Source: Gelidibacter algens (GTDB lineage Bacteria; Bacteroidota; Bacteroidia; Flavobacteriales; Flavobacteriaceae). From it: a stretch of 58,490 bases of DNA. The position numbers and the translations under genes were made by a program. Of this stretch, positions 16,319 through 52,482 are shown in pieces. The notes under the pieces were generated by a model. It saw only the letters and a list, made by a program, of their open reading frames with translations. It was not told where the DNA came from and made no database searches. How positions within the stretch are numbered: position 1 is the stretch's first letter; each line of letters opens with the position of its first letter. Where the stretch lies: positions 1-58,490 of the forward strand of contig NZ_LZRN01000028.1 of NCBI RefSeq assembly GCF_001678675.1, in the 5' to 3' direction.

Positions 16319-16388
16319 GTTGTGTGCTGTTTGTTGTCTGTTGTGGGTTGTCTGTTGTGGGTTGTCTGTTGTCTGTTGTCTGTTGTCA
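16319..16388 (+). repeat. heptamer array GTTGTCT, 10 units
   Basis: Ten consecutive 7-base units, mostly GTTGTCT or GTTGTGG, in perfect 7-base register. The array begins 9 bases from the start of the 565-residue gene. Confidence 0.9.
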
Positions 16389-16402
16389 ATAAGAACTAAT
16401 TT

Positions 16403-16430
16403 CCTCAAACCTCATACCTCAAACCTCATT
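16403..16430 (+). repeat. heptamer array CCTCAAA/CCTCATA, 4 units
   Basis: CCTCAAA, CCTCATA, CCTCAAA, CCTCATT in register, ending one base from the stop codon of the gene at 16432. A second unit type in the same intergenic space as the GTTGTCT array. Confidence 0.75.
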
Positions 16431-16431
16431 C

Positions 16432-16956
16432 TTACATTAATCCTTTGTCCTTCAAGCGTTCCCTGGCACTCTTTTTAGGTGGCTCAGGATCTTCTTCAAT
16501 TTCTTTTTTTGCTTCTTCCACAACTTTTGGTTCTCTAGTGGTGATATCTTGAATGAAATCCTTGCCTTGATCAATGGCGGTATCAAACTTCTTCTCAAAG
16601 TTGTCACTGTGGGCATCGATTACTTTTTCGGATTTAAGAATAAATCCGCCAATATAGGTTCCCAAAAGTGTACCGACGATACTTGAGGCAAATACTGAAA
16701 TAGTGGCAATGTCAATAGGGATCAAGAACCGCGCAATTAAAATCCCCACAAGAAAAATCATGGTGATAAATACCAATCGCAATAGGAATTTTTGCTCGTA
16801 CAAAAAACCTCTTGGATCATTTGGAGACATTTGAAGTTTTTTGGAATACATCATTCTATTTACAAAACGATACAAGCCATTGCCGGTTGATTCTCGCCAA
16901 TACAGCAGGATTCCGAATAAAATTGAGCCGATAAAAACGATGATTTCTAATGTCAT
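16432..16956 (-). CDS. three-helix membrane protein of the AAA+ cluster
   Basis: A 174-residue protein starting at the ATG at 16956 (MTLEIIVFIGSILFG). The open frame continues 33 bases further, but those codons come from decayed heptamer repeat. Membrane helices are near residues 3-20, 48-66 and 73-96, with a glycine-rich third helix (SIVGTLLGTYIGGFILK). A charged C-terminal tail (about 100-174) is rich in Lys, Glu and Asp and may form a coil. No known family recognised. It precedes the 565-residue membrane protein, a likely partner. Confidence 0.75.
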   Translation of the reverse strand: MTLEIIVFIGSILFGILLYWRESTGNGLYRFVNRMMYSKKLQMSPNDPRGFLYEQKFLLRLVFITMIFLVGILIARFLIPIDIATISVFASSIVGTLLGTYIGGFILKSEKVIDAHSDNFEKKFDTAIDQGKDFIQDITTREPKVVEEAKKEIEEDPEPPKKSARERLKDKGLM

Positions 16957-16962
16957 TTTAAA

Positions 16963-17082
16963 AAGTTTGAAACTGGAAGCATGAAGCACGACGCTTGATA
17001 CCTGCAGGCGGTTGATTTTAATTTTATTTGGCTCATAAACTTATTTTTAAGTTTGAAGCCGGAAGCATGAAGCTAGAAGCAA
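16963..17082 (+). repeat. two short GAAGCNN heptamer stretches
   Basis: GAAGCCG, GAAGCAT, GAAGCTA, GAAGCAA in register at 17055-17082, and a more decayed set (AGTTTGA, AACTGGA, AGCATGA, AGCACGA) from about 16963. They lie downstream of the four-helix gene at 17310 and match, on the same strand, the stretch at 17678-17712 on its other side. From 17083 to 17309 I see no gene or clear structure. Confidence 0.7.
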
Positions 17083-17309
17083 GTCTCTTAAGTTTGTTTT
17101 CATATATTTAAAAAATTTCAGTTTCTTAACCTTTAATGAATAATAAAACATAAGGTAAATTACCTCGTGCCTTATTTCCCCTAATAACTTCATTACTGAG
17201 AGTGTTTTTACTAATTAAATAGCCTTTTTCATTCCAAAGAAAACCAACCTATAAAGTTGAATTTAGCTAATATTTATATAATAAATACATAAAATTTTAT
17301 GCTTCTTGC

Positions 17310-17669
17310 TCATAGCTTTATAATCTTATTTCTGAAGGCTATGGTCATATTCATTAAATCAAAACAGGACTTATCAAATTTAAGAAAATCATCTTCTGTT
17401 ATATAGTTTCTTCTTTTGGCTTTGTGCAAACACGTCACTACTTCAGCGGTTGATCGAATTGCATAACCTAAGAATTTTCTATATTCTGCATCAGACTGTA
17501 AAATTGAGCCTTCCGAAATATTCAAAGCAATAGAATCTGAAGCTCTTCTTATTTGAGAAGACAAATTGTATAGCTCTTCTCTTGGAAACTTATACGCCAA
17601 AGAATTCATCTCCTCACCTAAATTCATGGCTTTTTGCCAAATAATCAAATCCTCAAATTTGAATTTCAT
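17310..17669 (-). CDS. four-helix bundle protein (S23/IVP-like)
   Basis: A 119-residue member of the four-helix bundle family first found in 23S rRNA intervening sequences. The opening FEDLIIWQKAMNL, the central SSQIRRASDSIALNISEGS, and the later Lys/Arg-rich helix are typical. No rRNA is present, so it is one of the free-standing chromosomal copies common in Bacteroidota, whose function is unknown. Related bundles serve as accessory proteins of diversity-generating retroelements, but no reverse transcriptase is in the window. It is enclosed by heptamer arrays and interrupts the AAA+ series. Confidence 0.92.
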   Translation of the reverse strand: MKFKFEDLIIWQKAMNLGEEMNSLAYKFPREELYNLSSQIRRASDSIALNISEGSILQSDAEYRKFLGYAIRSTAEVVTCLHKAKRRNYITEDDFLKFDKSCFDLMNMTIAFRNKIIKL

Positions 17670-17677
17670 AGTTAATT

Positions 17678-17712
17678 AGTTTGAAGCCTGAAGTTTGGAG
17701 CAGGAAGCTTTG
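17678..17712 (+). repeat. decayed heptamers upstream of the four-helix gene
   Basis: AGTTTGA, AGCCTGA, AGTTTGG, AGCAGGA, AGCTTTG in 7-base register, starting 9 bases upstream of the gene's start codon. Confidence 0.65.
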
Positions 17713-17795
17713 TGCCTTCAGATGTTTAATCCTATTTCTATTTGAGCCAAGAAATACTTGTTATTTCATTCAGGTTCAAACTACGTACTCCCCCT

Positions 17796-17921
17796 GCTTC
17801 TAGCTTCATGCTTCGTACTTCCAACTTCTAGCTTCACGCTTCGTGCTTCCAACTTCTAGCTTCATTCTTCCAACTTCTATCTTCATGCTTCCAACTCCCA
17901 TCTCCCATCTCCCATCTCATC
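17796..17921 (+). repeat. heptamer array NCTTCNN, 18 units
   Basis: Eighteen units in unbroken 7-base register (126 bases). Most fit (G/A/T)CTTC followed by TA, AT, GT, CA or AC; the last units drift to ACTCCCA, TCTCCCA and TCTCATC. It ends 20 bases from the stop codon of the gene at 17942. It is the reverse complement type of the GAAGCNN units at 17055-17082. Confidence 0.92.
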
Positions 17922-17941
17922 TTAAAATTAGTCTAAAAAAC

Positions 17942-19177
17942 TCAAATATTGTTACGAATGGTTGCAATGACCCAATCTTTCAAAGATTCATCCCACGCAT
18001 CATAATTTTTATAAAACTGCTCTTTATCATACCAATACAAAAAAAGAACGTCCAATGTCGAGATATTGACCAACAATTTCCAGATTAAATCATGATGTTT
18101 GACGTGTAAAGATGAGTGTGGCTTTTGCAAGGCTTCAAAAAGATGCATATCAACAATATCTGCCAATTTGTGCTGATTGCTCAGTTCCATTTTATCAAGA
18201 TACAATTCAACACTCATCACTTTTTTCCGATCTTCAATGGATAATTTGTTGAGATATCCTTTAAATAAAACATGATCATCCAAAATATCTTTTAAAGGAT
18301 GCTGCGTATCTTTCAGAAACTGGGCAAACATAAATTTTTTGATACGGTCATAGCGTGGCATTTTAACAACCGCTTCCAAATCATACTCAATGATCATATG
18401 GTCGCGCAACTTATCACTTAGTTCTGGCTGCGAAATATGATAAATCAACACATCATGCGACGTGTCTTTAATAGCTTCCTTGTGCCACTTTACATCTTGA
18501 AAAACGATGATTGGCGTGATGAAATCGCGTAACACAAACACGCCACCAAAAGCCTTAGTGTAAAAAGAATCTGTGGCGTAATAAAGCTCATGAAGCTCGA
18601 GATTGCGGTGCCTTAAATCGCCATAGGTTTTTGCAGAATCCAGCAATTGCTGATGCAAGTGTTCATCAATAAAATTATGTCCTTGTTTAAAGCTATCTAT
18701 CAACTGATATTGTTCTTTTTGAACTTTGTCAAGCTCATTAATCAGTTTGAAAGTGATCGAAATGTCTTGGTATTTCAACACATCAAGAGGTTCATAAAAC
18801 GCATCGATATGTTGATCAAAGTGCACACAAATAGCACAATCTCTCGTTATATCATTGATTCTGCTGCCATGAATATGGAAAACATGTTGCATCATTTGCC
18901 GATCAAATGTGTGAAACGGCACATACACGGGTTTTCCTTTTTGTAACGGTGTAATGATAATGGCATTTGGATTGGCCTCCCCATTATTGAGATAGTGCGG
19001 CTCTGACTTTTCTTCAGCAATTTCAGGGCTCCAACCCAATCCATCAATAGAGAAACTCGTGAGTTTTGTTTCAACAAACCCCAACATTTTTAGGCACTGA
19101 TTGTAGCGCTCTACCAATTTCCCGCTGATAGGGATGAGTTCGTGCCTGTATAAATTCGCTTCTTTTAGTTTATTCAT
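17942..19177 (-). CDS. unrecognised 411-residue protein of the AAA+ cluster
   Basis: No family recognised and no signal peptide or membrane helix. It appears soluble, alpha/beta in the first half and helical in the last 150 residues. Notable local features are FHIHGSRIND and FDQHIDAFYEP (about 97-130), with several conserved-looking His and Asp residues, but nothing that proves a metal site. The C-terminal part (DRIKKFMFAQFLKD onward) resembles a helical repeat. It lies 32 bases after the 215-residue membrane gene, so it is almost certainly cotranscribed with it and the NUDIX gene. A role as an adaptor of the AAA+ ATPase is inference from position only. Confidence 0.78.
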   Translation of the reverse strand: MNKLKEANLYRHELIPISGKLVERYNQCLKMLGFVETKLTSFSIDGLGWSPEIAEEKSEPHYLNNGEANPNAIIITPLQKGKPVYVPFHTFDRQMMQHVFHIHGSRINDITRDCAICVHFDQHIDAFYEPLDVLKYQDISITFKLINELDKVQKEQYQLIDSFKQGHNFIDEHLHQQLLDSAKTYGDLRHRNLELHELYYATDSFYTKAFGGVFVLRDFITPIIVFQDVKWHKEAIKDTSHDVLIYHISQPELSDKLRDHMIIEYDLEAVVKMPRYDRIKKFMFAQFLKDTQHPLKDILDDHVLFKGYLNKLSIEDRKKVMSVELYLDKMELSNQHKLADIVDMHLFEALQKPHSSLHVKHHDLIWKLLVNISTLDVLFLYWYDKEQFYKNYDAWDESLKDWVIATIRNNI

Positions 19178-19209
19178 TTGAAAAGTACACGCTGATTTTC
19201 AATTTGTAT

Positions 19210-19857
19210 TTAATTGGTAAGTGGTTCTTTAGGCAGTTTTTGAATTAGCTTGATATTCCCTTCTATTGGAGCGATGGAAACTTCTTCGACGCCTGTTGTC
19301 ACATAAAAAATATATAAACTATTCTTGCCAAGTAATTTTACTTTTTGTTTTTGGCCGTCCTCAAAAGTGATGGTGTGCGACAAGTTGACATCTCCTTTAT
19401 CAATTCTCTCCTTGGTCTTTACACCCCGTCCTATTCCTAAACCAGTAAATAAAGCGAATACAAACAAAGTAATTACTAATAGAGACGCATTTTTATTTTT
19501 AAACATCTCATTTGCTCTTTCTAGTTTCATTTTATTTTTCCCTTCCTGATATTTCTTTTTGGTTCCCAACCATTTATGATATCTGGGAATAAGTTTCAAA
19601 TATATATAACCAAAAATTATGACCACCAAAACTGCCGTCCCTAGCAACAGATTACCTAACATAACAGCTATGGGGCTAATCAAGACATCTAAAATCGATG
19701 AATATTCTAAAATATTGACACCTAAAAATTTATAGTATATCGTTTCATGAAATACGCCCAAGATCAATAAAAACACGTAACCGATGGACAAATAGTCCTG
19801 GAAGGCCAAATCATTTGATGGTTTATTTTCACTAATAATTTCTGTATTATTTTCCAT
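19210..19857 (-). CDS. membrane protein of the AAA+ cluster
   Basis: A 215-residue protein with three predicted membrane helices (about 21-41, 60-88 and 124-143) and a basic cytoplasmic segment between the second and third (KLIPRYHKWLGTKKKYQEGK). The last 60 residues form a small soluble domain (LSHTITFEDGQKQKVKLLGK). No named family recognised. It is tightly packed, 21 bases after the NUDIX gene and 32 bases before the 411-residue gene, indicating one transcript. Confidence 0.75.
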   Translation of the reverse strand: MENNTEIISENKPSNDLAFQDYLSIGYVFLLILGVFHETIYYKFLGVNILEYSSILDVLISPIAVMLGNLLLGTAVLVVIIFGYIYLKLIPRYHKWLGTKKKYQEGKNKMKLERANEMFKNKNASLLVITLFVFALFTGLGIGRGVKTKERIDKGDVNLSHTITFEDGQKQKVKLLGKNSLYIFYVTTGVEEVSIAPIEGNIKLIQKLPKEPLTN

Positions 19858-19878
19858 AGTTTTATGTTCTGAAATTAT

Positions 19879-20460
19879 TTAGACTAAATTATTAATCTGC
19901 GCATACTGCAACAGCATAATTGTTTTAGCGTCCTTAATTTCTCCTGTCGATACCATTTGAATGGCTCTAGACAATGGTAATTCTATCACTTCTATTTCTT
20001 CATGTTCGCTGAACACCCCTCCGCCTTCATTGACTTTCATAGCATCAGAATATCGTGCAACAAACAGATACATTTTTTCAGTTAAAGCTCCTGGCGAAGT
20101 GTACGCTTCCATAACTTGTTTCACTTCTTTTATTTTGTAACCTACTTCTTCTTCCACTTCCCTAATAATGGTCGATTCTGGGGTCTCAATTTTATCTATG
20201 GCTCCCGCGCACACTTCAATTGACATGCCTTCCTCTTCATTGGTATGGTAAATTGGCATCCTGAATTGTTTTGTTAAAATAACTGTTCCCTTGTCGATAT
20301 TGTACAATAAGATTCCGCAACCATGACCTCGATCATAACTTTCACGAGAGACCCGTTTCCAAGTGCCATTTTTAAACTGAAAATCATAATTGATCTCCAA
20401 TAGCGTTGCCCATGCTTTAGACAGCACTCTATGGGTTATATTTTTTATTTTATTTGACAT
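19879..20460 (-). CDS. NUDIX hydrolase (NudK/ADP-sugar pyrophosphatase-like)
   Basis: A 193-residue NUDIX enzyme expected to hydrolyse a nucleoside diphosphate linked to another group, such as a nucleotide sugar. The NUDIX box is complete: G-x5-E-x7-REVEEEVGY (about 85-107), with the Mg-binding Glu residues. The N-terminal strand region (FKNGTWKRVSRESYDRG) and VILTKQFRMP resemble the GDP-mannose pyrophosphatase group. The substrate cannot be fixed. It sits between the AAA+ gene (58 bases) and a membrane gene (21 bases), so it may belong to the same system or be a passenger. Confidence 0.9.
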   Translation of the reverse strand: MSNKIKNITHRVLSKAWATLLEINYDFQFKNGTWKRVSRESYDRGHGCGILLYNIDKGTVILTKQFRMPIYHTNEEEGMSIEVCAGAIDKIETPESTIIREVEEEVGYKIKEVKQVMEAYTSPGALTEKMYLFVARYSDAMKVNEGGGVFSEHEEIEVIELPLSRAIQMVSTGEIKDAKTIMLLQYAQINNLV

Positions 20461-20518
20461 TTTTCAAGATATAATTAACTTTTAACAGGATCTCCTAGGC
20501 GCTATAATGCTTGTGAGT

Positions 20519-22477
20519 TTAGTTTTCGAATTTATTGCGGGCTTCCAACTCAATATTCAAATCATTTACGCGAGAGTCTACCTGACGCTTAAAATCAGTG
20601 TCAGCAATGGTTGCCACATTATCCAAATAACGCACCACTTCCTGACGTCTTATTTCTGAAAAATCGAGCCCCTTCATATTGGCACGCATCAACTCCTGAA
20701 GCATGTTGAATTTAGTCTCATAAGACTGTTTGAAATAAATTTCCGGATTATCAAACCAGCTTTGTTCCAAATCAAAATCCGTCAATCGCAAAGATACAGC
20801 CGATTGGATATTCCTCACATCCCGTGATGAAAAGAAGGGAAAAACCCGCTGCATTTCTTTATATAAGTTGGCATAAAATTGGTGCTCATTGGTTGGATAC
20901 TGTTTTTGAACCTGATCATAAACGGCATGCACACGTTCTTCTGAAGGTTTATCGACAGATTTCAAGATTTCTCCCATATTTTTAGCCAACCCTTGATCTT
21001 GCAGGTAGTTGTAATTATCAGGATTTTTCATGTTTACAAAATTGGGCATGGTGTCTTGCAACTTGCGCCACCACAAATGGTCCTGATCCAAAAAGTCATG
21101 TTCAGTTTGTGCACCATCAATCTTAAAACGGCCTTGCACACGCGAGATCACCGCTTTATCCAACATTTCTGGTAAATTGGTAAATAATCCGATGGAACTA
21201 TTCCCGTAATTGACAGCATAAGCGCCCTCAGTATATCTCAAAAACACGCCAATAACTTCCTTTACACCGGCAGAAACACCTTGGGCAGTACGTTCCTGCA
21301 AATTATTCTCTGCGTCGTCAATAGGGGCGAAAATCAGTTTTGTAGGATCCTGCATAGGCTTCATCCATTCCACCATTTTTTCTGCAGAACCGCCTTGAAA
21401 AGTTGAAATCAAAGTGTCTGGCATAGGATGGAATAAAAACGGAAGTTCCAGATGATCACAATGTTCCTTTAAACGTGTTGCGATTGCTGCAATGAGCATA
21501 CTTTTTCCTGTTCCTGGAATTCCGTAACCCATAAAGACAGGCATAAATCCGCCCAATTCTTGAAACGGATTCTTTTTTGCTGTGAAATCGTAACTTAACA
21601 TCCGTTCCGTTAAACGGCGTGCGAAATGTTTGGCGTCTTTATTGCCAACAATCTGCTCAAACTTAATTTTGTTGAATTCTATACTTTTGGCAGCACCTGC
21701 GAAAACATTGTTCCAACCAGAAATTGCAAACTCTGAGTGCTCGAGCTTATAGGTTCTGTCCAGAATGGTTTCTTGATGCTCCAAAGTGGATTTTCGCATC
21801 TGGATTTCATCAATCAGCGCTTCAAAGAATACCACTGTAAAATCGGCCACATCCTTATCACTTTTGATAATATCAGGGTGTCCCAAATATTTATCATAAT
21901 AAAATAAGGTACAGGCAACTCCTTTAAGAGGTGACAATAAGGACGTTTCAGGAATCCCAGCAAATTTTTGCTTCATGACGCTCAAATCATCAGAAGCATA
22001 CGGTTTTAGATGATGTAAAATATGATAGGCCGTAGAAAACAACATAAATGCCGTGGCAGTATGCATCTTACTTTCATAGTCCCTTTTACCCATGCTGTCC
22101 AACGAGGCCTTGCGCTCATTTAGGCTGGACAAACCTGAGGCATCATAATAACTATCCTTGATCCAGATGCCCAAGGTCAGTCCTTCCTGAACCGCGTACA
22201 AGGTTTGGTTGAGCAAAACGGGAATGGCAATGGAATCTGGCAGTAAGCGTTTTTTTAGTTCTAAAATAGTTTTTGAAACAGAAGTCGTTTCTGCAACATT
22301 AGATCCGTTGTTGGCTCTGGAAAGATAGAGCAAAATGGAATCGTCCTTGGTGTCTTTATCTTTGTTTTTCGCCCGTTGTCCTTGTTCCCATTGGATACTT
22401 TTAAGATACGATGCGGCTTCATCACGAAGCATATCGAGTTCATTTTGTTTTATGGGGAATGTTGAGTTTTGTTGCAT
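20519..22477 (-). CDS. AAA+ ATPase, core of the cluster
   Basis: A 652-residue cytoplasmic ATPase with one AAA+ module in the middle. Walker A is GYGIPGTGKS (about 316-325). Walker B reads LIFAPIDDAENN (about 379-390), with Asp-Asp where most AAA+ proteins have Asp-Glu. The sensor 1 region is GLFTNLPEMLD (about 431-441), followed by arginine-finger-like ISRVQGRF. The N-terminal 300 residues are helical and not recognised; the C-terminus is helical and charged. The module resembles the classic clade (spastin/katanin-like), whose members remodel or pull apart protein assemblies. The substrate here is unknown. The neighbours are a coiled-coil protein and several membrane proteins, suggesting a membrane-linked machine. 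Confidence 0.88.
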   Translation of the reverse strand: MQQNSTFPIKQNELDMLRDEAASYLKSIQWEQGQRAKNKDKDTKDDSILLYLSRANNGSNVAETTSVSKTILELKKRLLPDSIAIPVLLNQTLYAVQEGLTLGIWIKDSYYDASGLSSLNERKASLDSMGKRDYESKMHTATAFMLFSTAYHILHHLKPYASDDLSVMKQKFAGIPETSLLSPLKGVACTLFYYDKYLGHPDIIKSDKDVADFTVVFFEALIDEIQMRKSTLEHQETILDRTYKLEHSEFAISGWNNVFAGAAKSIEFNKIKFEQIVGNKDAKHFARRLTERMLSYDFTAKKNPFQELGGFMPVFMGYGIPGTGKSMLIAAIATRLKEHCDHLELPFLFHPMPDTLISTFQGGSAEKMVEWMKPMQDPTKLIFAPIDDAENNLQERTAQGVSAGVKEVIGVFLRYTEGAYAVNYGNSSIGLFTNLPEMLDKAVISRVQGRFKIDGAQTEHDFLDQDHLWWRKLQDTMPNFVNMKNPDNYNYLQDQGLAKNMGEILKSVDKPSEERVHAVYDQVQKQYPTNEHQFYANLYKEMQRVFPFFSSRDVRNIQSAVSLRLTDFDLEQSWFDNPEIYFKQSYETKFNMLQELMRANMKGLDFSEIRRQEVVRYLDNVATIADTDFKRQVDSRVNDLNIELEARNKFEN

Positions 22478-22489
22478 ATTTTTTAGTCC

Positions 22490-22538
22490 TCAGTTGGCAG
22501 TCTTCAGTCCGCAGTTTACGATCCGTAGTTTACAGTAT
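22490..22538 (+). repeat. heptamer array TCAGTTG/GCAGTCT, 7 units
   Basis: TCAGTTG, GCAGTCT, TCAGTCC, GCAGTTT, ACGATCC, GTAGTTT, ACAGTAT in register. It lies between the AAA+ gene start (22477) and the stop of the four-helix gene (22561). Confidence 0.85.
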
Positions 22539-22560
22539 TCTATCTTTTGGATTGCCATTA

Positions 22561-22926
22561 TTATTTTAATCCGAATTTATCGGGATTGTTAATCATATAG
22601 TTTAGTAGTCTTCCAATTTCTTCACTCTTTAGCTGTAATTCTTTTCTCCTTGGCTCATCTATATAATCACAAGCCAAAGCAAAATCTAACCATAATTGTG
22701 TTTCAGAATTTTCACTATCAGCATCAGACACTTTACTTTTGAAGTGCTTTTCATATTGTCGTTTTCTGTAGGCTTCAGCAATTGCAGAACATACAGCTCT
22801 ACTTGATCTGACCATCTGAGACGTCAATACAAATTGTTCAGATTTCGGAAATTCCTTCGTCAAATGGAAAATATCCATCGCTAAATCAAATCCTTTTTGA
22901 TACGCTAATAACTTTTTGAAACCCAT
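22561..22926 (-). CDS. four-helix bundle protein (S23/IVP-like), second copy
   Basis: A 121-residue four-helix bundle protein: FKKLLAYQKGFDLAMDIFHL, then SQMVRSSRAVCSAIAEAYRK, and a C-terminal helix SEEIGRLLNYMINNPDKFGLK. It is clearly related in pattern to the copy at 17310 but of a different subgroup. Both sides carry heptamer arrays of the CAGTC type. A decayed relative lies immediately upstream (23007-23115). It separates the AAA+ gene from the 353-residue gene. Function unknown; no rRNA context. Confidence 0.92.
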   Translation of the reverse strand: MGFKKLLAYQKGFDLAMDIFHLTKEFPKSEQFVLTSQMVRSSRAVCSAIAEAYRKRQYEKHFKSKVSDADSENSETQLWLDFALACDYIDEPRRKELQLKSEEIGRLLNYMINNPDKFGLK

Positions 22927-22930
22927 TTTT

Positions 22931-22972
22931 TCAGTCTTCAGTTGGCAGTCTTCAGCTGGCAGTCTTCAGATT
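22931..22972 (+). repeat. heptamer array TCAGTCT/GCAGTCT, 6 units
   Basis: TCAGTCT, TCAGTTG, GCAGTCT, TCAGCTG, GCAGTCT, TCAGATT in register. It begins 4 bases upstream of the four-helix gene's start codon, so it forms that gene's leader. Confidence 0.88.
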
Positions 22973-23006
22973 CATTCTGAGATATGCACTCTTTGGAATG
23001 CCGTTA

Positions 23007-23115
23007 TTATTTTAATTCAAATTTTTCAAGATATTTCATCATACAATTTAAGAGTTCACTAATCTCTTCACTCTCTAAAATCCGTTTGTCAGCCCTCAGT
23101 TTATATTTTAATGAT
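23007..23115 (-). pseudogene. remnant of a third four-helix bundle gene
   Basis: Reading leftward, about 34 codons end in ILESEEISELLNCMMKYLEK and FELK before a TAA at 23009-23007. They align with the last 25 residues of the intact copy at 22561 (SEEIGRLLNYM...KFGLK). The DNA past the stop is also alike (TTTGGAATGCCGTTATTATTTTAAT here, with TTTGGATTGCCATTATTATTTTAAT at about 22546). An in-frame stop cuts off everything upstream, so only the C-terminal end survives. It lies between two heptamer arrays, as the intact copies do. Confidence 0.75.
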
Positions 23116-23144: not shown

Positions 23145-23179
23145 GACTGAAGACTGCAGACTGCCAACTGCCGACTTTC
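23145..23179 (+). repeat. heptamer array GACTGAA/GACTGCC, 5 units
   Basis: GACTGAA, GACTGCA, GACTGCC, AACTGCC, GACTTTC in register, running into the stop codon of the gene at 23178. It is the reverse complement of the TCAGTCT type at 22931. Confidence 0.82.
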
Positions 23180-41929: not shown

Positions 41930-41937
41930 ATTTTCAC

Positions 41938-43084: not shown

Positions 43085-43122
43085 TAATAAAAGATAATTT
43101 TTCAATTGATATACAAACCTAA

Positions 43123-43213
43123 GACTGAAGACTGAAGACTGAAGACTGAGGACTGAGGACTGAAGACTGAAGACTAAGGACTGAGGACTGAGGACTGAGG
43201 ACTGAGGACTGAA
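43123..43213 (+). repeat. heptamer array GACTGAA/GACTGAG, 13 units
   Basis: Thirteen units in perfect register (91 bases): GACTGAA or GACTGAG, with one GACTAAG. It is the same family as the CAGTC arrays beside the four-helix genes at 22-23 kb, here with no such gene. Confidence 0.95.
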
Positions 43214-43241
43214 GTTAATTTTTGCTTCCATGTCAATTTTT

Positions 43242-43295
43242 TTCAATTTCAACTTCAACTTCAATTTCAATTTCAATTTCAACTTCAACTTCATC
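43242..43295 (+). repeat. hexamer array TTCAAT/TTCAAC, 9 units
   Basis: Nine 6-base units directly before the SDR start codon at 43296. It translates as alternating Phe-Asn and leaves the upstream frame open whatever the copy number. Confidence 0.9.
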
Positions 43296-44087
43296 ATGAA
43301 TTTCAACAACAAAGTAATTTGGATTACAGGCGCCTCAAGCGGCATTGGGAAAGCATTAGCATTGGCGCTTTCACAGCACAATTGCCAATTGATTCTTTCC
43401 TCGCGGCGCAAAGAAGCGCTGGAAGCTGTGAAATTGCAATGTAAAAATCCAGAACAGGTGGCAGTGCTCCCCTTCGATTTAGCCGATTATGAAAATCTAA
43501 AACCAATAGCTCTCGAAGCCATTCAAATTTTTGGAACCGTGGATATCCTTATCAATAATGGCGGCATCAGTCAGCGGTCTTTGGTGATTGATACAGACAT
43601 TAGCGTGGACAAGAAATTAATAAACGTTGATTATTTAGGTCCTGTTGCGCTTTCAAAGGCATTGCTACCCCATTTTGTGAAGCGCCAAAGCGGACATTTT
43701 GTAACGGTCACGAGCTTGATGGGGAAATTCAGCAGTCCTTACCGCTCAGGATATTGCGGGGCCAAGCATGCGTTGCATGGTTTTTTTGATGCTTTACGAT
43801 TGGAACATGATAAAGACAATATCAAAGTCACTATGGTCTGCCCTGGGTTTGTCAATACTGACGTGGCTAAAAATGCATTGATTGGAGATGGCAGCCCACA
43901 ACAATCGCAAGACAATGCCACTGAAAACGGATTGGACGTAGATGCATTTGCTAAACGTATGCTTAACGCTATTCAAAAAGAAAAATTTGAAGCTTACATT
44001 GGCAAAAAGGAAGTTTTAGGAATTTATTTGAAACGCTTTTTCCCGAGGCTTTTGCATTGGTATGTGCTGCGGAGTGATGTGAGGTAA
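43296..44087 (+). CDS. short-chain dehydrogenase/reductase (SDR)
   Basis: NAD(P)-dependent oxidoreductase, 263 residues. TGASSGIGKA (about 10-19) binds the cofactor, NNGGIS follows (about 86-91), and the catalytic set is Ser in TVTSLMG (about 139), Tyr and Lys in YCGAK (about 152-156). The open frame extends upstream through the hexamer array and would add a Phe-Asn repeat tail. I take the ATG at 43296 because MNFNNKVIWITGASSG is the normal start. The substrate is unknown. Confidence 0.92.
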   Translation: MNFNNKVIWITGASSGIGKALALALSQHNCQLILSSRRKEALEAVKLQCKNPEQVAVLPFDLADYENLKPIALEAIQIFGTVDILINNGGISQRSLVIDTDISVDKKLINVDYLGPVALSKALLPHFVKRQSGHFVTVTSLMGKFSSPYRSGYCGAKHALHGFFDALRLEHDKDNIKVTMVCPGFVNTDVAKNALIGDGSPQQSQDNATENGLDVDAFAKRMLNAIQKEKFEAYIGKKEVLGIYLKRFFPRLLHWYVLRSDVR

Positions 44088-46631: not shown

Positions 46632-46650
46632 TTTAATTTTTTGGGTTGGT

Positions 46651-47490
46651 TTATGGAATCCATTTTTTTGGAAAGTTAGGCTTCCGTTTTTCCAAAAAGG
46701 CGTTTCGGCCTTCAATGGCTTCATCTGTCATATAGGCCAAACGGGTGGCTTCGCCTGCAAATACCTGCTGGCCTACCATCCCATCATCTGTTAAGTTCAT
46801 AGCAAACTTCAACATTTTTATGGAGATTGGTGATTTTTCCAATATTTCCTGTGCCCACTCATAAGCGGTATCTTCCAAGTCAGCATGCGGAATCACCGCA
46901 TTGACCATTCCCATATCAAAGGCTTCCTGAGCGGAATAGTTTCGTCCTAAGAAAAAGATTTCACGGGCGCGTTTCTGACCCACCATTTTTGCTAAATAGG
47001 CTGAGCCGTAACCCCCGTCAAAACTGGTCACATCAGCATCAGTCTGTTTAAAAATAGCGTGTTCTTTACTTGCCAAAGTCAAATCGCACACTACATGCAA
47101 ACTGTGGCCACCGCCAACTGCCCATCCCGGAACTACCGCAATGACTGCTTTGGGCATGAACCTGATCAAGCGTTGTACTTCCAAAATATTTAATCGGTGG
47201 TAGCCATCTTCTCCTACATAGCCCTGCTTCCCTCTCGCTTTTTGATCACCGCCACTACAGAATGAATATACACCATCTTTAGACGATGGCCCTTCTGCTG
47301 ACAACAATACCACACCAATATTCACATCTTCATTGGCATCGTAAAGCGCATCATATAATTCACTGGTGGTTTTTGGCCGAAATGCGTTTCTAACATCGGG
47401 TCTATTGAATGCTATTCGGGCAACTCCATTACATTTTTTATACGTAATATCTTGATACTCCTTTACAGTTTCCCACTTAATTTGACTCAT
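46651..47490 (-). CDS. menB: 1,4-dihydroxy-2-naphthoyl-CoA synthase
   Basis: Crotonase-fold enzyme that closes the second naphthoquinone ring from OSB-CoA. It has 279 residues. The signatures are FNRPDVRNAF (about 28-37), YSFCSGGDQKARG (about 74-86), and DVTSFDGGYGSAYLAKMVG (about 157-175). It is 20 bases after the CvfB-like gene and upstream of menA on the same strand. Confidence 0.97.
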   Translation of the reverse strand: MSQIKWETVKEYQDITYKKCNGVARIAFNRPDVRNAFRPKTTSELYDALYDANEDVNIGVVLLSAEGPSSKDGVYSFCSGGDQKARGKQGYVGEDGYHRLNILEVQRLIRFMPKAVIAVVPGWAVGGGHSLHVVCDLTLASKEHAIFKQTDADVTSFDGGYGSAYLAKMVGQKRAREIFFLGRNYSAQEAFDMGMVNAVIPHADLEDTAYEWAQEILEKSPISIKMLKFAMNLTDDGMVGQQVFAGEATRLAYMTDEAIEGRNAFLEKRKPNFPKKWIP

Positions 47491-47510
47491 GTATTTGTTT
47501 TTATACGATA

Positions 47511-48341
47511 TTAAATAAGATAGATGCCATCGTCCTTAATCTCAATCAATCGTTGTTTATATAAAGTTCCAATGGCTTTTTTAAAGGTTTTTTTACTCAT
47601 TTGTAAAACTGCTTTAATATCCTCTGGATTTGATTTATCAGTTAAATTAATATAGCCACCATTGTCTTCCAACTCATGCATAATAGCATCTGCATTGGGT
47701 TCAATTTTTCTATAGCCAATTTGTTCTAAAGTAATGTCCAATTTATTGTCAGGCCTAATTTTTTTGACAACACCTTTCATTCGGTCACCAACGCTCAATT
47801 CCTTATAAATATCATCTTGAAAAATCAATCCCGCATGTTGATTGTTGACAATGACATTCATGCCAATTTCTGACGGATGGGAAATGATCACATCAACCTC
47901 TTCAAACTGGGTGACGGTCAATTCTTTATTGTCTAGATAATGATTGGTTTTGCTGGAAGCTGCCAATCTGCCTGTTTTTTCATCCAAATAACAATGCACC
48001 AAATACCAACCGCCGGCTTTCATTTTAAAAGCCTGCTCCTTAAATGGACAAAACAATTCTTTGACCAATCCCCAATCTAAAAAAGCACCGTGATCAGTCA
48101 CCTGATTACAACGCAACATGGCAAACTCTCCTCGTGTTATATAAGGTCTGTCTGTTACGGCAACAAGACGTTCTTCATTGTCTAAATAAACGAATACTTC
48201 AATTTTTTCCCAAATCTGAAAAGTTTCAGGAACATATCTGTTTGGCAACAACACTTCATTGCCTTCATTGTCAGCAATATAAAGGCCTTGCTCTGATTCT
48301 CGTAGTATTTCTAGGGTGTTGTATTCTCCAATGTGTATCAT
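47511..48341 (-). CDS. CvfB-like S1 RNA-binding protein
   Basis: A 276-residue protein with S1-like beta-barrel repeats and a C-terminal winged helix (about 215-276, LTDKSNPEDIKAVLQMSKKT). The middle S1 repeat (RGEFAMLRCNQVTDHGAFLDWG) is clear. It resembles CvfB, an RNA-binding regulator of virulence or RNA fate in Gram-positive bacteria. Its position before menB suggests only cotranscription. A -7 element and an upstream terminator show it has its own promoter. Confidence 0.88.
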   Translation of the reverse strand: MIHIGEYNTLEILRESEQGLYIADNEGNEVLLPNRYVPETFQIWEKIEVFVYLDNEERLVAVTDRPYITRGEFAMLRCNQVTDHGAFLDWGLVKELFCPFKEQAFKMKAGGWYLVHCYLDEKTGRLAASSKTNHYLDNKELTVTQFEEVDVIISHPSEIGMNVIVNNQHAGLIFQDDIYKELSVGDRMKGVVKKIRPDNKLDITLEQIGYRKIEPNADAIMHELEDNGGYINLTDKSNPEDIKAVLQMSKKTFKKAIGTLYKQRLIEIKDDGIYLI

Positions 48342-48345
48342 GGTG

Positions 48346-48353
48346 CAAAGGTA
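48346..48353 (-). promoter_or_regulatory. -7 element TACCTTTG of the cvfB-menB-menA transcript
   Basis: Exact TAnnTTTG on the minus strand, ending 4 bases before the ATG at 48341. This predicts a leaderless transcript. No TTG at the -33 distance. Confidence 0.45.
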
Positions 48354-48374
48354 AGAATATTAGTGTTTATCCCA

Positions 48375-48420
48375 TAAAAAAAAAGCGATACAGTTCTGGG
48401 TTTTCAGAGGTATCGCTTTC
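48375..48420 (-). terminator. rho-independent terminator of menD
   Basis: On the minus strand AAGCGATAC and GTATCGCTT form the stem with an 18-base loop, then a run of at least eight T. It isolates menD from the genes that follow. From 48422 to 48774 no gene or other structure is evident. Confidence 0.8.
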
Positions 48421-48774
48421 TGACTTTAATGTAGGAAATTCTCAACCGTAAATGCCACTTTGTTAAAATGTTCTGTCGGCATATACACTACAGCTCTATA
48501 TTAATTTCTGTAAGATTTAACGAAAGTTTACAATTTGGCATCCAGAAAATTGAGGCAGCCTCGGCAATGCTAATTGACGGACTACAGCCAAACACTACTT
48601 TGGTCAATAGCACGCTATCAGCATGAACACAGAATTTTCCTTATAAATCTGCAGTATATTTAGGAATTTTCTCATCTCTTTTGCTCATTTTTAAACTTCA
48701 ATAGATCACACTATCGAAAAGTCAATTGGGAAAATTTTAGTTATGTAGAACGATGGCTGACCACTACCTACGCC

Positions 48775-50532
48775 TTATTTCAGAAACTTAAAATAATCCA
48801 GCAATATCGCGTCATTGGGCTGCCCAGCAGTGTTGATCTCTAGAATTTTTGGATGATTACTCTCTTTGAAAAACGAATTGAGAGCATTGGTCAAATCGTT
48901 TTGGGATGACACTTTCTTATATTTGAAATTGTACATCTCGGCCAAATGTTGCGCTGTCAACTCATGTTTGGTTTCAAAATAAGTGTCAAAATTTTCTGTG
49001 TTTTTATGCCCGGGAAGGATTCTAAAAATGCCACCACCACCATTATTGATGATAATTATTCTGAACGAATTGGGAATATAATTGTTCCAAAGCGCATTAC
49101 TGTCATAAAAGAAACTCAAGTCACCCGTGATAAAATTGGTTTGCCGTTTATGGGCCACCGCGCACCCTATAGCGGTTGATGTGCTCCCATCAATACCACT
49201 CGTGCCTCGGTTGCAGAAAACTTCTATAGATTTATGGATGTCGAACAATTGCGCATATCTAATGGCAGAACTGTTCCCAACCTGCAAAATAGAATCGTTT
49301 GGCAAGGTTTTGAAAAGAGTGTCAAAAACTTTAAAATCTGAAAATGGAAGTTTCTCTACATAACTCAGATGTTTTTTAGCACGCTCCAATTTGATTCCTG
49401 TCCAATAGTTTTTATAGGAACTTTTTACCTGCTCGGCCTTTGGCAAGAATTCACTTAAAAAATAATCAGGTGTTTCCTTAATATGGTGGGTCAAGCAGAA
49501 AAACGTGTCATACGCTCGGGTTTCACTAATATGCCAATGCTCTTTGGGTTGGTATTCCCTTAAAAACGCTTTTATTTTTTTGGAAACCAACAAACCGCCT
49601 AAGGTGATCAGGATTTCTGGCTGCAGCTTTACAAAATCCTCTTTCTGTAGTGGGGCAATGAGTTTATCAATGCTGGTGATAAATGAGCCGTGGTCTAGAT
49701 TGGATGTGGTTTCTGTCAGTACAATAACGCTCTCATCTTTGGCCAATAAATTCAACCACTTCTGTTCAATTTTGTTTGGTGCATACTCGCCTACCAATAT
49801 CATTTTACGTTTCGATTTTCGCCAATCATTCAAACATTGGTCCAAAATATAGGTGTCCATTTTTGGCTCCTCTAACTCGATGGGAACATTTATGGGCGCT
49901 ACTTTTAAGGCATCAACCATTTCATAGAGCGGCTCATCAAAAGGGACGTTGATATGTACGGGGCCTTTTTTGACAACGGCCTTATTGATGGCGTCATTTA
50001 ACTCCTGTTCGTTATACTTCTGGATATCTTTTTGAAGCCCTAACAAACGCTCCAATTTATCCTCAATATTTTTAAAAATAGGAATATCCTCAGTCACTGG
50101 AATATTCAGTTCATCTTTCAAGTCCAGCTTTAAGTTAGCAGAATGGAGGATGTGGTTTTCAAAAACATTTTTCTGATTGATGGTCTGTCCGTCGCCAATA
50201 TTTTGCAAATGTTTTGGTCGATCTGCAGAAAGAAGAATCAACGGAATTTCGCTATAAAATGCTTCAGCAACCGCCGGATAATAATTGAGCAATGCGCTCC
50301 CCGAGGTACAGGAGACCAACACTGGTGCTTCAATTTGTTGGGCAATGCCTAACGCAAAAAAAGCAGCACAACGCTCATCTACAATACTATAACACTTAAA
50401 AAAAGGATCGTTGGTAAAACCAATGGTCAAAGGCGCATTTCTACTACCAGGAGAAATGACAATATGTTTGATGTTTTTTGCTTTACAAAGCTGAATAACG
50501 GTTTGTGCAAGGGGGATTTTAGGATATTTCAT
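48775..50532 (-). CDS. menD: 2-succinyl-5-enolpyruvyl-6-hydroxy-3-cyclohexene-1-carboxylate synthase
   Basis: Thiamine diphosphate enzyme that adds 2-oxoglutarate to isochorismate, the first committed step of menaquinone synthesis. It has 585 residues. HIVISPGSRNAPLTIGF (about 20-36) and SCTSGSALLNYYPAVAEA (about 74-91) form the N-terminal substrate site. The ThDP motif is GDLSFFYDSNALWN (about 472-485), followed by NNGGGGIFRILPG. It is downstream of menF, with 172 bases between. Confidence 0.97.
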   Translation of the reverse strand: MKYPKIPLAQTVIQLCKAKNIKHIVISPGSRNAPLTIGFTNDPFFKCYSIVDERCAAFFALGIAQQIEAPVLVSCTSGSALLNYYPAVAEAFYSEIPLILLSADRPKHLQNIGDGQTINQKNVFENHILHSANLKLDLKDELNIPVTEDIPIFKNIEDKLERLLGLQKDIQKYNEQELNDAINKAVVKKGPVHINVPFDEPLYEMVDALKVAPINVPIELEEPKMDTYILDQCLNDWRKSKRKMILVGEYAPNKIEQKWLNLLAKDESVIVLTETTSNLDHGSFITSIDKLIAPLQKEDFVKLQPEILITLGGLLVSKKIKAFLREYQPKEHWHISETRAYDTFFCLTHHIKETPDYFLSEFLPKAEQVKSSYKNYWTGIKLERAKKHLSYVEKLPFSDFKVFDTLFKTLPNDSILQVGNSSAIRYAQLFDIHKSIEVFCNRGTSGIDGSTSTAIGCAVAHKRQTNFITGDLSFFYDSNALWNNYIPNSFRIIIINNGGGGIFRILPGHKNTENFDTYFETKHELTAQHLAEMYNFKYKKVSSQNDLTNALNSFFKESNHPKILEINTAGQPNDAILLDYFKFLK

Positions 50533-50704
50533 TCATGGATAATCTTATAACAAAAATACAACATTAGGATAGCTTAATGAAGCATTGCCGCTTGAAAAAT
50601 AGATGAACTCCATTGAGATCGTATGGAATTATTGATTATTGAGTTATTCAGTAATAGGATAAAAAGAAACCATCTGAAAAACACAAATTCATTGATTACA
50701 ATTC

Positions 50705-51823
50705 CTAAAGTATCCGTTTTATAGTTTGAGATTTATGGACTGTTTCTTCCCACTCCATCTCAGCATCTGAGTCTTTAGTGATTCCGCCACCAACATAAAG
50801 GTAAACATGTTCATCTTTGAGTTGCATGCAGCGCAAATTGACATAAAAATTGGATACCTTTTTTGACACGGCGTAGGCGTTGTTCTCCACGTTACGTCTG
50901 TTAGTATTTCTTGTGGTGGTTTCTTTCAGATTCAATTCGCCCAGAAATCCAGCATAGAATTCCCGGGGATACCCTTCATGTTCTAAAATAAACGCTTTAG
51001 CCTTATCCTTTGGAAAACCACAAACCGCGGGTGTTGGATGGATTGCTTTCAGCAAATGTTTCAAATTTAGAGTTCCAGGTTTCAAGTTGGCTTGAATTGT
51101 GGTTCTTAAGTGAAGTAAATTTCCGGCCCTGACGGTTTCTATTTCAGACACTTTTATAGTGTCAACTGAAGTCTCAAGACTCCCAACAATAAAATCAGTT
51201 ACCAACTGCTGTTCCTCCTTCTCCTTCTCTTTCCAAACCACATCCGTTGAACCTTTAAAAGGCTGGGTGCCTGCCAAGGACATTGTTTTTAGTTGATTCC
51301 CTCTAATGCTCAGCAGGGTTTCAGGAGTAGCGCCCAACCATAATCCCACTTTTGGGTGGTACCAACAATACACAAATGCAGTGGTATACGTATGCAACAA
51401 CTTTTTAAACAAGTTTATGGGATTGGCCTCTGGAGGTTGAACCGCTTCTCGTCGTGAGAGTACCACTTTTTTTAAGTGATTGTTTTTAATGGCCTCGATC
51501 GCTTTTTGAACGAGATGTGCGTGGAATTCTTTTTGATTACTAGGGCTTTGATCTGCCTTAGTTGCGCCATCAAATTCATGAGATGGGAGAAACTCATGTT
51601 CAATTCCAGTTGAGTTTTCAATAGGAATTAAGAACGCTTCATTTTCTGCATCAAAAGGCGCAAATACAAAGCCACTTTCGGTAAAGTCGACACTGGTGTG
51701 AATTATAGCATCGCTTTGAAGAAGCCCTTTAACTACTGACGTGTCTGGTTTTTTATACGCAACAAAAGGCAACTTCTTATCAAACTGATTTTGGATATGC
51801 TCAAAAAATTGATCCAACGCCAT
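50705..51823 (-). CDS. menF: isochorismate synthase
   Basis: Converts chorismate to isochorismate. A 372-residue member of the anthranilate synthase component I-like fold. The signatures are KKVVLSRREAVQ, LLSIRGNQLKTMSLAGTQPF (about 173-192), and the C-terminal AIHPTPAVCGFPKDKAKAFI with YAGFLGEL (about 260-295). Its Lys and Glu for Mg are in the expected places. It follows the thioesterase gene by 1 base, so the two are coupled. Confidence 0.95.
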   Translation of the reverse strand: MALDQFFEHIQNQFDKKLPFVAYKKPDTSVVKGLLQSDAIIHTSVDFTESGFVFAPFDAENEAFLIPIENSTGIEHEFLPSHEFDGATKADQSPSNQKEFHAHLVQKAIEAIKNNHLKKVVLSRREAVQPPEANPINLFKKLLHTYTTAFVYCWYHPKVGLWLGATPETLLSIRGNQLKTMSLAGTQPFKGSTDVVWKEKEKEEQQLVTDFIVGSLETSVDTIKVSEIETVRAGNLLHLRTTIQANLKPGTLNLKHLLKAIHPTPAVCGFPKDKAKAFILEHEGYPREFYAGFLGELNLKETTTRNTNRRNVENNAYAVSKKVSNFYVNLRCMQLKDEHVYLYVGGGITKDSDAEMEWEETVHKSQTIKRIL

Positions 51824-51824
51824 T

Positions 51825-52250
51825 CTATTTCGTTTTGGGTAAGGTAATGGTAGATAATCTGCAAATAGAAATCAAATTATCATGGTCATCCGTGATTCTG
51901 ATATCCAAAAGCTGAGTGGTTCTCCCTTTGTGAAGAAAGGTCGCTTTGGCATATACATAGCCGTCTTTGACAGATTTTAAATGATTGGCCGTTATTTCGA
52001 GTCCGCGAACAAATAGATGCTCCGTGTCCAAGAAAATATGGGACGCAAAACTCCCCACACTTTCTGCCAAAGCAGCTGTGGCACCACCATGGAGTACCCC
52101 ATCTGGTTGATAAACCCGAGAATTGACGGGCATTCTCGCCACTAAAAAATCCTGACCATAGTCAATCATTTCGATATCAAGCGTTTCCATCAGGGTGTTT
52201 TTACTGGCGCTATTCGCTTTTGCCAGAAGTTGTTCTTTAGATAAATTCAT
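51825..52250 (-). CDS. hotdog thioesterase, probable DHNA-CoA thioesterase
   Basis: A PaaI/YbgC-type hotdog thioesterase, 141 residues. The active-site region is VYQPDGVLHGGATAALAESVGS (about 47-68, catalytic Glu near 64). Placement 1 base before menF, in the menaquinone set, makes it a likely MenI, which hydrolyses 1,4-dihydroxy-2-naphthoyl-CoA. The reaction is not proven by sequence alone. It is the first gene of the transcript thioesterase-menF-menD. Confidence 0.88.
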   Translation of the reverse strand: MNLSKEQLLAKANSASKNTLMETLDIEMIDYGQDFLVARMPVNSRVYQPDGVLHGGATAALAESVGSFASHIFLDTEHLFVRGLEITANHLKSVKDGYVYAKATFLHKGRTTQLLDIRITDDHDNLISICRLSTITLPKTK

Positions 52251-52316
52251 AGAAAAATTCTGTAATTAATGTCCAAGGTAAAGGTACGAAATAACACTTG
52301 ATGAATTCGAAATTGA

Positions 52317-52365
52317 GTTTCTGGTTTCTGGTTTCTGGTTTCTGGTTTCAGGTTTCTTGTTTGTC
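52317..52365 (+). repeat. heptamer array GTTTCTG, 7 units
   Basis: GTTTCTG four times, then GTTTCAG, GTTTCTT, GTTTGTC, in 7-base register, upstream of the thioesterase gene. Confidence 0.9.
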
Positions 52366-52412
52366 CATGCCTAAATAACATTGACAGGTTTTTTGTTTAT
52401 GGTTATGTGGTT

Positions 52413-52482
52413 TTTGGTATTTCGTTTTTGATATTTGGTATTTGGTATTTGGTATTTGGTATTTGGTATTTGGTATTTGGTA
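52413..52482 (+). repeat. heptamer array TTTGGTA, 7 exact units plus decayed ones
   Basis: TTTGGTA seven times without a change (52434-52482), preceded by drifted units (TTTTTGG, TATTTCG, TTTTTGA). It lies 50 bases from the GTTTCTG array, between divergent genes. Confidence 0.93.

Follow-up and report, generated by a model that had tools for sequence, protein, structure and literature searches.

The 58 490-nt contig NZ_LZRN01000028.1 of Gelidibacter algens (below, the window) carries tandem arrays of many different 7-base units between its genes, and two of these genes, both bracketed by such arrays, belong to the PF05635/TIGR02436 family of 23S rRNA intervening-sequence proteins (IVP, or S23). 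We found that arrays of period 7, or of period 8 in some clades, accompany genes of this family in distant groups of prokaryotes; that the arrays on the two sides of a gene are mostly reverse complements of each other, with a consistent strand polarity; that the gene is mostly in sense with its neighbours; and that unit and period go with the protein. In our judgement, the arrays are probably the cognate ends of a small, widespread element around the S23/IVP gene, together with its scattered relics or derivatives.

Arrays of period 7 and 8 accompany IVP genes

All 10 places in the G. algens genome (4.5 Mb in 140 contigs, genome code G000; the window is contig C28) that match PF05635 have a period-7 array within 500 b. 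One of the 10, L001, is broken by stop codons, and the array of L005 is A-rich and degenerate. L006 and L007 are twins, located on contigs C11 and C72, with identical proteins and array positions; they could be a duplication or an assembly artefact. L008, L009 and L010 make up a divergent PF05635 subgroup (∼40 bits), also with period-7 arrays within 500 b.

Period 7 was present at 13 of 30 IVP loci of the same order and period 8 at 12 of 30 (the two sets may overlap); for loci of the same phylum the counts were 14 and 3 out of 25. These were the best 30 and the best 25 of longer match lists. The same pipeline applied to ParE controls found period 7 at 1/30 and period 8 at 1/30 loci, or at 1/27 (period 7) when full flanks were required. 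Control loci of the Y1 transposase (Y1_Tnp) from the order, all with full flanks, had a period-7 array within 500 b in 0 of 25 cases. At 80 named IVP loci, the best 80 of 574, the density of period-7 arrays per 100 kb was 106.8 up to 500 b from the gene vs 13.5 beyond; the respective densities for period 8 were 19.3 and 2.7, and periods 5, 6 and 9–13 reached at most 5.1 per 100 kb.

A larger candidate set was made of the 80 named loci, 65 loci of the own genome, order and phylum, 30 + 30 from two further searches and 14 plasmid loci. We dropped L007 (twin of L006), L001, L050, L051 and L084 (without a clean open reading frame, ORF), L220, L223 and L225 (partial matches), L239 (no annotation), L246 (same gene as L201/L183), as well as L199, L200, L204, L215, L218, L254 and L257; the remaining 202 loci became 197 once identical genes were removed. 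(The tree and the protein identity comparisons below exclude L132, L135, L144, L175, L186, L188 and L255.) The best period within 160 nt was 7 in 131 of the 197 distinct loci, 8 in 23, another one of 5–13 in 10, with none seen in 33; arrays were situated on both sides in 84 loci, on one side in 75 and on neither side in 38. With loci grouped by flank homology or 55% protein identity into 38 clusters and one locus taken per cluster, period 7 was best in 28–30 over five draws.

IVP loci span Bacteroidota, Proteobacteria, Cyanobacteria, one archaeal genome and other groups; Methanophagales, SAR324, Limnohabitans, Thiobacillus, Thiohalocapsa and gammaproteobacteria are among those outside Bacteroidota. 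The intergenic heptamer repeats of the cyanobacterial type are known as short tandemly repeated repetitive (STRR) sequences, and an earlier note, made from the letters of the window, had likened the arrays to them. The parallel was right in spirit, as the cyanobacterial heptamers look like one and the same phenomenon: at threshold 10, each of the 13 cyanobacterial-plasmid IVP genes that we read, from 14 of 27 matching plasmid records, is flanked by an array, of period 7 in 12 cases and of period 8 in one (Picosynechococcus), and 11 of them have arrays on two sides. The units are AGGGTGT/CTACACC on a plasmid of Calothrix brevissima and AGTAGGG/TACTCCC on one of Nostoc edaphicum; the plasmid pairs of Nostoc HK-01 and Pseudanabaena look direct, not inverted. 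Three of the cyanobacterial-plasmid loci (L230, L231 and L232) are CRISPR-cas operons holding an IVP gene, in the order cas6-IVP-cas4 twice and cmr2-IVP-cmr3 once. Among 28 Chromatiaceae-family loci (L418–L445), assessed by inspection only, 22 had at least one period-7 array in the gene or its 1.5-kb flanks and, at threshold 12, 6 had no array of period 7 or 8; none of these 28 loci showed doubled TAACTGA.

In three IVP-free genomes there were no period-7 arrays at threshold in 600 kb. The genomes G000, G079, G366 and G254, with 10, 13, 15 and 11 IVP hits, had 2.4, 1.0, 3.0 and 0.0 arrays per 100 kb, respectively; that array density tracks the presence of IVP genes across genomes is suggestive only.

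At one locus (L056, 39–2243) the PF05635 match overlaps a long open frame that by eye resembles a DNA methyltransferase; TTHHS-like protein repeats appear where the heptamers are translated, and arrays may invade coding DNA.

Inverted units, strand polarity and sense orientation

Left and right units of the 74 two-sided period-7 loci matched only as reverse complements in 52 cases, only directly in 7, both ways in 2 and neither way in 13; an ORF bordered by complementary ends, as in the intervening sequence (IVS) of 23S rRNA, is thus the arrangement of 52 of the 74 pairs. The mean inverted similarity between left and right arrays was 2.19 vs 1.05 for pairings between loci (maximum of 5000 permutations, 1.27). 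Two-sided period-8 loci were inverted-only in 7 of 10 cases, and with one locus per cluster 13–15 of 19–20 pairs were above threshold in inverted and 1–3 in direct comparison.

The strands are not equivalent. Left arrays were G-rich in 86 and C-rich in 14 of 103 cases, right arrays C-rich in 97 and G-rich in 8 of 107; that is, the strand read inward is G-rich at both ends of the element. The background skew 300–600 nt away was +0.07 in the left flank and +0.06 in the right one. With one locus per cluster, the ratio of positive to negative skew was 20–23:3–4 for left and 3:18–22 for right arrays.

The IVP gene was in sense with both neighbours at 157 of 180 loci, with median gaps of 69 and 47 nt, and the arrays are located within tens of bases of its start and stop codons. 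A single procedure applied to all classes found same-strand triples in 45/57 cases for IVP, 10/20 for ParE, 9/24 for Y1 and a fraction of 0.44–0.62 for ordinary triples. In one such row a NuoM-like gene (PF00361) is followed by an IVP gene and a frame judged NuoN-like from its translation only.

Inverted matching and sense orientation would also be expected if the two arrays paired in the transcript to form a stem cut by RNase III, with repetition as a by-product of stem growth; PMC4990558 describes an IVS in Coxiella whose loop holds an S23p ORF and whose terminal stem has 28 bp. Unit-by-unit complementarity over 81 loci was, however, hardly above that of column-shuffled arrays (mean z 0.74, median p 0.57, 10% of loci below 0.05). 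Moreover, 7 of 74 pairs were direct-only, 75 of 197 loci were one-sided, and a stem has no need for its left arm to be the G-rich one. We rejected the RNA stem alone as a full account on these three grounds (weak unit-level pairing, direct and one-sided loci, polarity), and consider such an explanation unlikely.

Unit and period follow the protein

Pairs of loci with non-homologous outer flanks and at least 70% protein identity had a unit similarity above 2 in 18 of 19 cases. Among same-period pairs this level was exceeded in 39% at 60–70% identity, 13% at 50–55% and 4–7% below 50%. On the protein tree the period label changes 9 times, vs a mean of 20.8 changes (minimum 17 of 1000) upon shuffling. 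The tracking of the protein by both unit and period fits a specificity evolving with the protein or co-inheritance in a moving unit.

We can now weigh polymerase slippage, which PMC4679880 and PMC4692102 cite as the main published proposal for the excess of heptamers in bacterial genomes. In its generic form the polymerase footprint would expand any seed at period 7, the IVP genes being bystanders. Rapid change of copy number between G. algens and a genome of the same genus (G666), the many orphan arrays without a nearby IVP gene, and the IVP-rich but array-free G254 all speak for it. Yet the arrays are tied to one protein family and not to ParE or Y1, their sides match as reverse complements with consistent polarity, period 8 is clustered on the protein tree, and 600 kb of three IVP-free genomes gave no period-7 array. 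As a full account generic slippage was rejected on the basis of the IVP association, reverse-complement matching, polarity and clustered period 8, and we regard it as improbable. The earlier note had proposed one copying or slippage mechanism acting on different seeds. A common cause does seem right, period 7 being genome-wide, and the fast turnover of copy number fits slippage or unequal exchange; slippage on arbitrary seeds, however, is insufficient, as it leaves the clustering at one protein family unexplained and predicts neither reverse-complement sides with G-rich inward strands nor a unit and period that follow the protein, with period 8 in some clades.

Boundaries and junctions without IVP

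Where the flanks of similar genes differ, similarity ends in or near the arrays. The 90% identity of L151 and L165 is confined to a stretch from 14 nt in front of the gene to 60 nt behind it, that is, to the gene and its right array. The ends of BLAST alignments are blurred where arrays are degenerate. In loci of the Flavobacterium type, the space between a PRiA4_ORF3 gene and an NA37 gene is occupied by an IVP gene with both its arrays; in G109 (L291; no PF05635 hit), L294, L295 and L297 this junction is short and lacks IVP, and on reading we found no such array there. Another IVP-less junction, L293, carries period-6/7 repeats. Like genes with different flanks, along with junctions without the element, would fit insertion, gain and loss not being distinguishable in such comparisons. 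The IVP gene and the next gene of Flavobacterium fluvii (L126) and of a Limnohabitans metagenome-assembled genome (L170) have 76% DNA identity, which may indicate transfer or a misbinned contig.

One could speculate that arrays came first and served as hot spots where IVP genes land: orphan arrays occur independently of IVP genes, repeats are present at the IVP-less junction L293, and the left arrays of L151 and L165 differ. Insertion into an array would, however, leave direct and not inverted halves, and the IVP-less junctions G109 (L291), L294, L295 and L297 have no such array. Insertion into pre-existing arrays was rejected as a full account because of the inverted halves and these array-less junctions, and it appears very unlikely to us.

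Orphan arrays

We compared 20 arrays of G. algens that lie away from IVP genes with its own IVP units; three of the initial 23 (window 16313, 17796 and 23145) were set aside beforehand, the first of them solely for lying within ∼1 kb of an IVP gene of the window (IVP1). Outside the window, the sampled contigs have no match to PF05635. The mean best similarity was 2.10 vs 1.62 (SD 0.10; maximum of 5000 trials, 1.91) for units of seven random loci of other genomes. Twelve orphans were clearly above expectation, mostly those of CAGTC and GAAGC types.

The dispersal of orphans is also relevant for the reading in which the arrays are operators or mRNA-leader sites, bound by several subunits and controlling the IVP operon without any mobility. 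TRAP is an analogue for autoregulatory multi-subunit leader sites. Arrays close to start and stop codons (within tens of bases), a unit that follows the protein and the strong purifying selection acting on both proteins of the window are all in line with autoregulation; arrays at both ends, mostly inverted, similar genes with different flanks and orphans dispersed far from IVP genes are not. We see autoregulation as a rather doubtful explanation of the arrays.

Inverted pairs of the GGGAATC type, with arrays ∼50–155 nt apart, were seen at two places of the gammaproteobacterial genome G839 (L446, 1306–1537; L448, 1430–1529). Their polarity, left G-rich and right C-rich, is that of IVP loci, and they are possible non-autonomous derivatives; a regular expression for the IVP motif found nothing within 1.5 kb on either side of the two places. 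Among the 369 genomes covered by a pattern search, such pairs turned up in G839 alone. When 274 genomes of the class were searched for a homologue of XCC0516, a family member of solved structure, the best protein identity was only 58%.

Fold and partners of the protein

The AlphaFold2 model of the first window protein, IVP1 (pLDDT 94.6), matches the solved folds of the PF05635/TIGR02436 family, 2gsc (XCC0516; E 1.6e-6, TM 0.91) and 2rld (S23 family; 5.7e-4). Both structures have five chains, and the S23/IVP protein is probably a pentamer. Avd, the accessory protein of diversity-generating retroelements (DGRs), is a pentamer that binds nucleic acid. Foldseek matched the IVP1 model to Avd of the Bordetella phage retroelement (4dwl, E 0.13) and to its ribonucleoproteins (8ub-series, released in 2024); over these matches TM was 0.71–0.79, E 0.13–0.95 and probability 0.97–1.00. 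Although S23/four-helix-bundle proteins are common and have solved structures, the titles of 2gsc and 2rld leave their function unassigned (hypothetical, unknown function).

The fold is thus shared with DGR Avd, and the second window protein, IVP2, passes the cut-off of the bAvd model; unlike in a DGR, where a reverse transcriptase is part of the system, IVP-rich genomes exist without any RVT_1 hit (none in G030, G049 and G366). A reverse-transcriptase partner acting in trans is, by the same three genomes, not required. G. algens itself has two RVT_1 hits over the cut-off, on contigs other than the window. G079 has 19; many of these score identically, which suggests that a family of introns or retroelements has expanded there.

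The proposed element and its relatives

The element we propose would sit mostly in sense between two same-strand genes, from the stop codon of one to the start codon of the next, in the order gene A, G-rich array, IVP gene, C-rich reverse-complement array, gene B. The IVP protein, of Avd fold and probably pentameric, would bind its own arrays on the strand that is G-rich when read inward, in constant steps of 7 nt (8 nt in certain clades). These steps would set the period and leave the sequence free to drift with the specificity of the protein, and copy number would change by slippage or exchange. Activity of the element might seed arrays of its own unit at other junctions, by analogy to the relation of repetitive extragenic palindromic (REP) sequences to RAYT, and in the 23S rRNA IVS this element would reside in rRNA. 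The binding, the geometry of one subunit per unit, the movement and the seeding are inferred.

Several observations weigh against this proposal. No period-7/8 array was seen within 160 nt at 38 of 197 IVP loci and 75 of 197 are one-sided; G254, with 11 IVP genes, has no array at threshold in 200 kb, and the IVP-free control consists of only three genomes of differing G+C. Hits were drawn from the top of each match list and the loci are not independent, with 131 of 190 proteins falling into one single-linkage cluster. Genes of 100–150 aa formed same-strand triples in 42/77 cases over four genomes, but in 11/12 cases in G079. Five units per array, taken as a sign of the pentamer, turned out to be an unspecific count (median 5.1 for proximal and 5.8 for distal arrays, same mode) whose floor is set by the detection threshold, and we discarded it.

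The boundaries are also one-sided: the stretch shared by L151 and L165 stops short of their left arrays, which differ; the similarity among L117, L125 and L126 begins at the start codon and reaches ∼+50, the place of the right array; and L170 resembles L117 and L125 within the gene only, while L126 and L170 share the next gene as well. The evidence for an element boundary is thus fair at the right array only. Loci with homologous flanks score lower than those with non-homologous ones, with unit similarity above 2 in a fraction of 0.67 of 18 pairs (70–80% identity) and 0.59 of 27 (80% and more); units at fixed sites thus change as well. Co-inheritance alone could explain the coupling of unit and protein. 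Seven of the 20 orphans were below expectation and one barely above, the stretch 52317–52485 of the window being counted among these. At both window genes the near upstream array is direct with respect to the downstream one and only the far upstream arrays are inverted. Finally, no recombinase or reverse-transcriptase partner was found.

The element resembles several known systems. PMC4990558 presents the S23p element of Coxiella as rRNA-resident, with unproven ideas of a mobile origin; the likeness includes an ORF family of the same name, inverted repeats at the ends, a position in sense within the transcript and the proposed mobility. Unlike that IVS, the element lies between protein genes and has as its ends tandem 7- or 8-base arrays with a unit varying with the protein. 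The window genes do not lie inside a 23S rRNA gene: there were no Rfam matches in the window at gathering thresholds, and 10 neighbour genes tested with Pfam include several protein families.

A small gene, flanking inverted repeats, dispersed copies and orphans that follow the type of the resident gene are features shared with REP/RAYT. Unlike RAYT, a Y1 transposase, IVP is a four-helix bundle without a known catalytic domain, and the repeats are heptamer arrays; none of 25 Y1_Tnp loci of the order had period-7 arrays beside the gene.

Intergenic tandem heptamers of Calothrix/Nostoc, Xanthomonas and Beggiatoaceae are similar to those of G. algens, although the host, a member of Flavobacteriaceae, is distant from cyanobacteria. 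In keeping with this placement, the IVP locus L036, from a genome of its family, has 86% identity over 2.3 kb to a Flavobacterium locus (L195), and L034, from a genome of its order, 88% over 3.3 kb to Chryseobacterium (L156). PMC4692102 reports GGGAATC in Xanthomonas and GGGGA(C/T)T in Nostoc, with 186 repeats in Xcc, most of them of four units, 70 convergent inverted pairs, and a location nearer to the 5′ neighbour ORF; PMC4679880 reports TAACTGA in Beggiatoaceae and others. The passages covered do not mention 23S-intervening or four-helix proteins, the term 23S having a count of 0 in both papers; PMC8700078 only lists four-helix-bundle genes as strain-specific. We found no link between S23/four-helix-bundle proteins and heptamer arrays in titles and abstract beginnings among the matches listed, subscription papers being outside this scope.

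A broader reading is tentative: each S23/IVP protein, as the partner so far missing for heptamer repeats, might read and propagate its own heptamer or octamer, with subunit spacing setting the period, so that the heptamers of Nostoc/Calothrix, Xanthomonas and others and the 23S IVS would form one ancient transcript-resident class, RAYT/REP-like but non-homologous. Our findings suggest that bacterial repeats of a long-known class go back to a kind of genetic element that has been overlooked. If the cognate link is true, binding, the dynamics of arrays after gene deletion and the origin of the period in the oligomer are all testable; the S23 IVS of 23S rRNA would then join a wider family slipping in between neighbouring genes, CRISPR-cas and respiratory genes included.

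Arrays and IVP genes of the window

We found ∼11 period-7 arrays with differing units in the window (Tandem Repeats Finder, TRF, and direct reading; multiples 14 and 21 included), in agreement with the earlier note, which had described many such arrays. A strict scan gave 6 period-7 segments vs 0.05 in dinucleotide shuffles; periods 4–6 and 8–13 gave 0–1 each, and the multiples 14 and 21 gave 5 each. In 858 kb of the G. algens genome, window included, there were 26 arrays of period 7 (2257 b), 26 of period 14, and 2, 1, 10, 4, 10, 4, 1, 10 and 1 of periods 4, 5, 6, 8, 9, 10, 11, 12 and 13, respectively. The comparison of periods suggested in that note thus came out for period 7 (and its multiples), which dominates both the window and the genome sample. 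Tandem 7-mers of several sequences in intergenic DNA, the mark of cyanobacterial-type heptamers, are what the window contains, and period-7 arrays seem to be a genome-wide peculiarity with apparently one common cause. The register, described as strict, was good but imperfect: several arrays are degenerate, 2 bases being variable beside a 5-base core (as in GAAGCNN and CAGTCNN), and within 17795–17891 TRF counts 4% indels.

Both window IVP genes pass the curated cut-offs for PF05635/TIGR02436. IVP1 (17310..17669, minus strand, 119 aa; Pfam 1.5e-30, TIGR02436 9.1e-29), a four-helix bundle gene, is bracketed by GAAGCNN/CTTCNNN arrays. Downstream in gene sense lies GAAGCNN on the plus strand (17054..17081; TRF, direct reading); upstream are a near array, also GAAGCNN on the plus strand (17678..17712) and direct with respect to the former, and a far array, CTTCNNN on the plus strand (17795..17918), which is inverted to the other two and runs into CCATCTC units. 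IVP2 (22561..22926, minus strand, 121 aa; Pfam 23S_rRNA_IVP 2.2e-29) is also bAvd-like (7.7e-12, above the cut-off of that model) and is below the cut-off of the NCBIfam equivalog DivGenRetAVD. It is bracketed by CAGTCNN arrays: a downstream one (CAGTCNN on the plus strand, 22485..22515 by TRF and to ∼22536 by eye), a near upstream one (22930..22969, same unit and strand, direct with the downstream array; TRF, direct reading) and a far upstream one (GACTGNN on the plus strand, 23145..23176, inverted to the other two; TRF, window scan).

The genome G666 has both genes at the same sites, at ∼80% DNA identity. The orthologs have protein identity 0.83 each, with dN 0.117 and dS 1.55 for IVP1, dN 0.077 and saturated dS for IVP2; the window IVP genes are under strong purifying selection. 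The units are the same in the two genomes, while letters and copy numbers differ. The counterpart of the array at 17054..17081 consists of GAAGC units with different letters, the far array of IVP1 has ∼17 units vs ∼3–4 in G666, and the near array at 17678 was not seen there, so that the far and downstream arrays of G666 form a clean inverted pair. The downstream array of IVP2 is present in G666; 29 of the 40 places listed for that genome are dispersed matches to the near array of IVP2. Arrays change their number of copies quickly, in the way expected of slippage or unequal exchange. In this related-strain comparison, a check also suggested in the earlier note, the units at IVP genes and one other array (CCTCAAA) are kept; letters and copy number are not, and the arrays at 17678 and 16316 are absent.

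Other arrays of the window are TGTTGTC (16316–16387; TRF, window scan), which lies ∼0.9 kb from IVP1 and is absent from the same junction in G666, and CCTCAAA (16403–16429; TRF), common to both genomes. The orphan AAGACTG (43121–43214; TRF, window scan), a reverse complement of the IVP2 CAGTC unit, lies between the genes of a fatty-acid hydroxylase and of an SDR protein (Pfam); its best match to an own-genome IVP unit is 3.22 vs 2.00 expected. For the orphans GTTTCTG (52317–52362; TRF, scans) and TATTTGG (52404–52485; TRF, window scan), scored above as a single stretch, we found no matching IVP unit in the G. algens genome; orphans similar to GTTTCTG are L275 and L285. The repeat at 43241–43293 (TTTCAA) has period 6, not 7; it overlaps the start of the SDR ORF (43230–44087), of which the true start may be near 43297.

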